Assembly: GCF_011045165.1 (NCBI RefSeq)
Contig: NZ_JAAKZI010000039.1
Location: 1-34,037, forward strand
DNA from: Arthrobacter silviterrae
GTDB lineage: Bacteria; Actinomycetota; Actinomycetes; Actinomycetales; Micrococcaceae
Length of the DNA stretch: 34,037 bases
Direction: 5' to 3'
Positions within the stretch are counted from its first letter, which is position 1. Every line of letters starts with the position of its first letter. Below are positions 4,353-25,697 of the stretch, in pieces. The notes beneath the pieces are model-generated. The model was not told the DNA's origin. It made no database searches and worked only from the letters and a program-made list of their open reading frames with translations. Position numbers and translations under genes: made by a program.

Positions 4353-4382
4353 CCGGTATCGGCGCCGGAGCCGGCATTTTTT
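4353..4382 (+). terminator. Probable hemW terminator
   Basis: CCGGTATCG (4353-4361) can pair with CGGAGCCGG (4366-4374) across a GCGC loop, with two G-T pairs and one mismatch. It is followed by CA and a T6 run (4377-4382). The same bases form the left arm of the longer inverted repeat in repeat copy A, so the two folds compete. Confidence 0.5.
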
Positions 4383-4463
4383 GTAGGCGACGTAGAGGAG
4401 ACGCCAAAGGCCGCCCGCGGCCGACGCGTCGGATAGTCGCCGGAAAAATGGCGGGCCGGCGCC
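4361..4463. repeat. Structured intergenic repeat, copy A
   Basis: A 61-bp core (4376-4436) shares three identical blocks with copy B: ATTTTTTGTAGGCGA, GGCCGCCCGCGGCCG and GTCGGATAG. Outside the core, GGCGCCGG (4361-4368) is complementary to 4456-4463, and ATTTTT (4376-4381) to AAAAAT (4444-4449). GGCGAC (4386-4391) pairs with GTCGCC (4436-4441), GACGC (4400-4404) with GCGTC (4426-4430), and GGCCG with CGGCC around CCCG. The element sits between the convergent genes hemW and DUF4870. I do not recognise it as a named family. Confidence 0.75.
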
Positions 4464-4466
4464 GCC
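4444..4466 (-). terminator. Probable terminator of the DUF4870 gene
   Basis: Read on the minus strand, GGCGG and CCGCC (4462-4466 and 4450-4454) form a stem around a 7-nt loop and are followed by ATTTTT (4449-4444). It lies about 50 bp beyond the DUF4870 stop. It also forms the right arm of repeat copy A. Confidence 0.5.
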
Positions 4467-4516
4467 CTCTTCGGGCCGACGCCTGCACTTAAAGACGGGC
4501 GGGCGCGCGCTCCGAA

Positions 4517-25541: not shown

Positions 25542-25697
25542 GCGCTTTCCCGACATTTTTTGTAGGCGAGGTAAAGCTAGAGAAAGGGCCGCCCGCGGCC
25601 GTGGTGTCGGATAGACCCCAAGCGCTCCCACTGCTCGCAAGCTCGCAGCGGGTCCCTCGCGCCTGTGGGCCCAGCCGGAAAAATGCCGGGAAAGCGC
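25542..25697. repeat. Structured intergenic repeat, copy B
   Basis: This is the second copy of the element at 4361-4463, in the same orientation. The core (25555-25614) has the same three identical blocks. The outer arms are GCGCTTTCCCGACATTTTT (25542-25560) and its near-perfect complement (25679-25697), with one mismatch in 19; they are unrelated in sequence to the arms of copy A. GCGAG (25566-25570) pairs with CTCGC (25656-25660), covarying with copy A. About 50 extra bases hold an additional stem: CCCACTGC (25627-25634) with GCAGCGGG (25645-25652), one mismatch. It lies between the convergent genes pyrD and aldo/keto reductase. Confidence 0.75.

Follow-up and report, generated by a model that had tools for sequence, protein, structure and literature searches.

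A family of dispersed hairpin repeats of about 105 nt with a conserved fold in an Arthrobacter-related clade of the Micrococcaceae

An intergenic hairpin of Arthrobacter silviterrae, here called copy A, is a full member of a family of dispersed, structured repeats of about 105 nt that is centred on a single Arthrobacter-related clade of the Micrococcaceae. The family may be REP/BIME-like, a reading whose chances we consider to be about even. The fold of these repeats is preserved by selection, mainly on one strand, and this is strongly supported. The first-pass annotation of the window (the whole stretch of DNA analysed here, 34,037 nt) had proposed selection on a fold from two copies of the element. 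Its observations were on the whole partly confirmed, and its interpretation was partly supported.

Results

Copy A is a nested hairpin between convergent genes

Both reported copies of the element, copy A and copy B, were recovered at the same places and share the blocks ATTTTTTGTAGGCGA, GGCCGCCCGCGGCCG and GTCGGATAG. As described, they lie in one orientation between convergent genes (4336> <4517 for copy A; 25513> <25712 for copy B), and the arms of each are self-complementary (Table 1). The left neighbour of copy A is a radical SAM protein (Pfam). The stops lie 18 nt to the left and 47 nt to the right, and copy A is 'sense' to the nearer gene, an orientation opposite to the family trend at the nearest gene 3' end.

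As RNA, copy A has a minimum free energy of −63.6 kcal/mol, as compared to −45.3 ± 3.3 kcal/mol in 200 shuffles. The hairpin is composed of the helices P1 to P5, a GTAG motif at the P2/P3 junction and a two-sided internal loop between P3 and P4. The score of copy A against R1, the covariance model of the family, is that of a sequence belonging to the R1 training set.

Table 1. Coordinates of copy A, its structural elements and copy B in the window
Feature	Position	Strand	Remarks
Copy A, whole hairpin	4360–4464	+	R1 match 4355–4469, 127.8 bits; fold z −5.5
Outer helix P1, 5' strand	4360–4368	+	9/9 complementary to 4456–4464
Helix P2, 5' strand CCGGCATTTTTT	4371–4382	+	Partner 4443–4454; single G.G mismatch in copy A
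GTAG motif, P2/P3 junction	4383–4386	+	GTA unpaired; G is the first base of P3
Helix P3, 5' strand GGCGAC	4386–4391	+	Partner 4436–4441
Conserved internal loop, 5' side	4392–4399	+	GTAGAGGA in copy A; commonest form in the family GTAAAGGA
Helix P4, 5' strand GACGC	4400–4404	+	Partner 4426–4430, GCGTC
Apical hairpin P5, GGCCG-CCCG-CGGCC	4409–4422	+	Nearly invariant
Conserved internal loop, 3' side GGATA	4431–4435	+	Coupled loop forms
Helix P3, 3' strand GTCGCC	4436–4441	+	RNA fold and covariation
Helix P2, 3' strand GAAAAATGGCGG	4443–4454	+	RNA fold and covariation
Outer helix P1, 3' strand	4456–4464	+	Pairs with 4360–4368
Copy B, composite variant	25542–25697	+	Outer arms 25542–25560/25679–25697, 18/19 complementary
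Inserted hairpin from another repeat family	25616–25672	+	Sits at the 3' strand of P3 in copy B

The fold is preserved by compensatory changes, mainly on one strand

In an alignment of 31 copies, both-sided changes were found at 23/37 pairs (9.7 when shuffled). Once the partner was shifted by one to three columns, the paired cells fell from 90.4% to 28.7–54.3%. A second alignment, A3, comprises 93 copies recovered with the covariance model and has both-sided changes at 27/37 pairs and in 318 cells (17.8 and 74.5, respectively, when shuffled); shifting the partner there reduced the paired cells from 94.1% to 31.6–56.9%. Since A3 was fitted to the structure, its values lean towards that structure.

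Among the 93 copies, both-sided changes affect 9/9 pairs of P1 (85.6% of cells paired), 11/12 of P2, 5/6 of P3 (98.6% paired) and 2/5 of P4 (96.3% paired). P5 is exact in 63/93 aligned copies and four of its five pairs never vary, so that this helix is uninformative for or against pairing. The outer arms, which had been taken to be unrelated in sequence between copies, turned out to share a family consensus of about GGCGGCGG/CCGCCGCC, with G in 87% and 78% of 97 copies at the first two positions, and this consensus drifts with compensation.

The two strands are not equivalent. The model pairs contain 174 G-U as against 50 A-C cells (89 distinct rows), a single helix-end pair supplying 58 of the former and 17 of the latter. 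In alignment-free comparisons, the + strand has the lower energy in 89/98 copies as RNA and in 92/98 as DNA; in other genera, where 11 of 13 matches were compared, it is better as RNA in 9/11. Taken together, the covariation in both alignments and the better folding of the + strand strongly support the proposal of selection on the fold.

Parts of the unpaired sequence are conserved as well. The two sides of the internal loop occur in coupled forms, GTAAAGGA with GGATA in 64/98 copies and GTCAGGGA with GGAAA in 12/98, the remaining 22/98 being other or unparsed. In 84/98 copies, the inner helix is accompanied by GTAG.

The family is centred on one clade

A gapped pattern of the core occurs seven times in the A. 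silviterrae genome and a looser one (up to three mismatches) 11 times, while the control, with the pattern reversed, gave no hit in either case. R1 was built from 31 copies, including copy A and leaving out copy B and other composites, and has 18 matches in this genome at E ≤ 0.01, copy B not being among them. Across the genus, with at most 150 candidates scored per genome, R1 matched 23/23 genomes, with a total of 241 matches at E ≤ 1e-5 and 1 to 32 matches per genome. In the Micrococcaceae as a family, 20/158 genomes have a match; 12 of these lie outside the genus, and their matches are weak. The 13 matches from these 12 genomes have the nested architecture in common and 11/13 have the apical hairpin, but they carry different internal loops. 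In a class-wide scan, one of 296 genomes had a match, namely that of A. silviterrae itself; as 12 candidates were scored per genome, this result speaks only weakly for absence. Of 80 loci of named genomes surrounding the left neighbour of copy A, 44 were searched, with no match. In Arthrobacter sp. ERGS1:01, a copy lies on a 754-kb plasmid, between pyrE and the gene of a nickel-binding protein, which are convergent.

The first-pass annotation had reasoned that a lack of further copies in related genomes, or copies whose arms do not covary, would argue against a selected structure; relatives proved to hold many copies, and their arms covary. It had not recognised the element as belonging to a known family, and this also stood. 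Rfam gave no match at gathering score in the window, where the best E for copy A was 0.6, below gathering score, and a known RNA family was set aside as a candidate on this result. Neither viral contigs (searched with one exact pattern) nor phage records contained a hit, and no earlier description of the family was found in the titles and abstract openings of the open-licence PMC literature.

Copies lie near gene 3' ends in a preferred orientation

The set of 98 copies was derived from 110 matches by removing ten duplicates, six weak matches (<34 bits, partly on the opposite strand of known copies) and three rows of the tandem array L022, and by adding seven copies. It represents 17/23 genus genomes, consists mostly of the higher-scoring among the matches listed and keeps orthologous copies; with this make-up it is not a random sample. 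Gene neighbours were assigned with a purpose-made codon-usage caller which, on an annotated plasmid stretch, gave the correct strand for 7/7 genes and the correct stop for 6/6 genes whose stop lies within the stretch.

Thirty-seven copies lie between convergent and 54 between co-directional genes, none between divergent genes, five inside predicted genes and two at edges. In 62/91 copies, the + strand runs antisense to the gene whose 3' end is closest (p 0.0007, a value that treats the copies as independent, some being orthologous), and 48 of these 62 are at most 40 nt from the stop. Single copies show the same orientation in 42/63 cases, and matches in other genera in 11 of the 12 that could be classified. 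A 3'-UTR RNA, as suggested by the first-pass annotation, is possible, but in those 62/91 copies the strand that folds better runs antisense to the gene whose 3' end is closest.

All 16 close pairs among the 98 copies are arranged −/+, with the 5' (GTAG) ends inside, a count that leaves out the same-strand neighbours of one genome, G015. There, six tandem copies in one orientation follow each other with a 111-bp step (L022; contig 17, about 52121–52789), and two further same-strand neighbours exist besides this array. A partial copy also stands on the same strand beside the copy at L049. When copies of four genomes were sorted by half of the chromosome (52 positions among the matches listed), no clear link to replication direction was seen; the origin was not located for this comparison, and no formal statistic was applied.

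Corresponding sites differ between genomes

In genome G021, the copy A site is occupied by a family member (L210) with the same relative orientation, which has the alternative loop form and differs from copy A in both strands of P3. By eye, ten named relatives have other hairpins or none at this site. At the copy B site, compared in 23 genomes, G006 and G014 hold family copies in the opposite orientation; several genomes carry a different repeat within terminator-like hairpins, and others short spacers (by eye). This different repeat, GAGCAGTAAG...AAATCCATCCTCGCTC and variants, was seen by eye on either strand at L149, L154, L157, L158 and L165, where bidirectional terminator-like hairpins enclose it and the flanking genes are those of copy B. 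At the copy A site of Specibacter cremeus (L065, downstream of 4386), a long palindrome GGTCTCGAC...GTCGAGACC was noticed, and similar words stand beside several family copies (both by eye).

Core similarity is 0.857 at orthologous sites (54 same-orientation pairs) as compared to 0.837 over 3726 pairs, and that of the outer helix is 0.667 as compared to 0.621. These means leave out the close pair G007/G008. Its four shared copies that were compared are nearly identical, with a single outer helix at 0.64 as the exception. Sharing a site thus hardly makes copies more alike, and at such distance descent is indistinguishable from saturation or turnover. No clean empty site for the family was found.

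Copy B is a composite that carries an insert

Copy B lies between the genes for a DHO dehydrogenase and an aldo-keto reductase. Its fold (z −1.9) is weaker than that of copy A, and R1 finds in it a local match only (25560–25622, model positions 27–90, 21.5 bits, E 0.0017). After GTCGGATAG stands an inserted hairpin of about 57 nt. Composite copies at L028, L037, L059, L192 and L285 have the insert at the same point, whereas L009 has it reversed and L218 has it on the 5' side. The pattern of the insert family, CTCGCAAGCTCGCAGCGGGNCCCTCGCGC with up to three mismatches, was found in 22/23 genus genomes (loci L286–L315 and 25616–25672 of the window), frequently as tandem arrays whose step is mostly 53–58 bp.

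The change from GGCGAC/GTCGCC in copy A to GCGAG/CTCGC in copy B had been read as compensatory. The two helices are not homologous: the CTCGC of copy B lies inside the insert, and the GCGAG/CTCGC helix is therefore no evidence of covariation. The genuine compensatory changes in P3 are those of other copies, given above.

L062, L235, L236 and L253 keep the outer scaffold, including GTAG and P3, around differing inner sequences, which suggests that nested modules have been exchanged.

Discussion

A REP-like origin of the family is favoured because of the GTAG motif, the inverted dimers, the placement and the mosaic structure. By analogy with REP transposases, which recognise GTAG hairpins in single-stranded DNA, a putative trans-acting protein would recognise the folded strand, the stems by their shape and the GTAG motif and the GTAAAGGA/GGATA loop by their sequence. 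The activity of such a protein would once have spread the copies. Those at gene 3' ends may have persisted because they are nearly harmless in such places, and transcribed copies would form strong RNA hairpins. The REP/MITE-like dispersed element offered by the first-pass annotation is supported in a REP/BIME-like form.

Size and intergenic place also recall the ERIC/RU-type repeats of enterobacteria, which are intergenic and of the order of 100–170 bp; their hosts are unrelated bacteria. The closer comparison is with the GTAG REPs. According to Di Nocera et al. (2013; PMC3733652), GTAG/CGTC REPs lie between convergent or co-directional genes near 3' ends, form inverted dimers with GTAG inside ('TT') and occur within larger palindromes. 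With these REPs and with BIMEs, the copy A family shares its palindromic and dispersed nature, the position near 3' ends, the inverted dimers, the GTAG motif, compensatory stem changes and the occurrence within larger palindromes. Dispersed and mostly intergenic placement is seen in the 91/98 copies between two called genes, with 0/91 divergent sites and 16/16 inverted dimers. In contrast to the GTAG REPs, with units of 20–40 bp, the family measures about 105 nt and covaries out to P1, its GTAG is internal, between P2 and P3, instead of terminal, it has a conserved coupled internal loop and 1 to 32 matches per genome, and 21/23 genus genomes have no match to a Y1 transposase (PF01797). A REP transposase encoded in the A. 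silviterrae genome itself was rejected as a candidate, PF01797 being unmatched there. The two PF01797 matches of the genus, L233 in G019 and L234 in G016, have no R1 match within either locus. By size, GTAG position and transposase, the family thus falls outside the GTAG REP superfamily. The same-strand neighbours, such as those in G015, and the failure to find a clean empty site as a sign of recent transposition likewise speak against the REP-like reading.

Orientation tied to the nearest gene 3' end (62/91) need not arise from a purely selfish element, and an RNA element acting in one direction at the 3' borders of genes, which we hold to be a tentative possibility, would account for the strand and orientation data better than the REP-like reading, as judged from sequence. 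The + strand RNA would fold as transcription nears a gene 3' end from outside, as convergent readthrough or antisense, and would halt or process it there, no U-tract being involved; where two copies face each other, each gene would be protected. Hairpin termination without a U-tract is known from work on mycobacteria. The fold kept on the + strand, in G-U over A-C cells, RNA energies and covariation, is consistent with such an element, and so are the antisense orientation of all copies, of singles and of matches in other genera, the short distances to the stop, the −/+ arrangement of every close pair and the lack of divergent sites. Inspection by eye of the copy A and copy B sites in several other species gave unrelated hairpins or sequences resembling terminators, as if these slots often held some hairpin. 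Against this stand the opposite orientation in 29/91 copies, including copy A, the counting of orthologous copies as independent, and the copy B site of several relatives, which by eye is a short spacer with no element or obvious hairpin. A more specific proposal, rather unlikely in our estimate, is that the repeats would be strand-specific RNA marks of gene 3' borders built from exchangeable nested modules (proposed to be the outer scaffold, the recognised internal loop and the apical hairpin), acting one way in stopping or processing, without a U-tract, transcripts that enter a gene from its 3' side, and served by a dedicated putative RNA-binding protein.

Other readings concern the arms. 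A small element could have inserted into the loops of pre-existing hairpins, the outer arms belonging to the target. The arms indeed differ strongly between copies, REPs within larger palindromes have been described (PMC3733652) and, in other species, the copy B site has a different repeat lying within terminator-like hairpins (by eye); however, the outer arms have a consensus across loci and compensate pair by pair, and among ten named genomes whose copy A site was read, none was noticed to have an empty hairpin with arms that match, so that we regard this as improbable. The bidirectional terminator of the first-pass annotation, in the form of a canonical intrinsic terminator with a structured loop, appears very improbable. 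Like rho-independent terminators, copy A is a strong GC-rich hairpin between convergent genes, and it has hits on both strands in which one self-folded arm is followed by a T-run (two found as compared to 0.3 expected). Unlike them, the family has sequence-conserved loop regions, and on neither strand is the hairpin followed by a consensus T-tract, which leaves the canonical form unsupported: T never exceeds 29% at any position of the 30-nt flanks (97–98 copies), the one-arm type occurs in 12/98 (5' arm) and 19/98 (3' arm) copies as compared to 18.0 ± 3.3 and 17.8 ± 3.2 in shuffles, and some copies swap the T-run (TTTCC/GGGAA) while keeping the pairing. The U-tract of an intrinsic terminator is thus absent from the family at large, copy A by itself having one-arm hits on each strand. 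A MITE belonging to a DDE-type insertion sequence, with the arms as terminal inverted repeats, would fit the inverted ends, the dispersed copies and the copy on the ERGS1:01 plasmid, but seems the least probable of all. Its terminal inverted repeats should be constant, whereas the outer helix varies between copies and the middle is the most conserved part; the flanks have no strong positional consensus, though by eye a few have short words in common.

Many of the small repeats of bacteria are short and classified by their sequence; the fold of the present family measures about 105 nt and has been maintained in different species by many compensatory changes. Either a putative protein handles such hairpins, or REP-like repeats can be retained to act as RNA at the ends of genes. 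The alignment could support an Rfam-style entry for annotating the clade.
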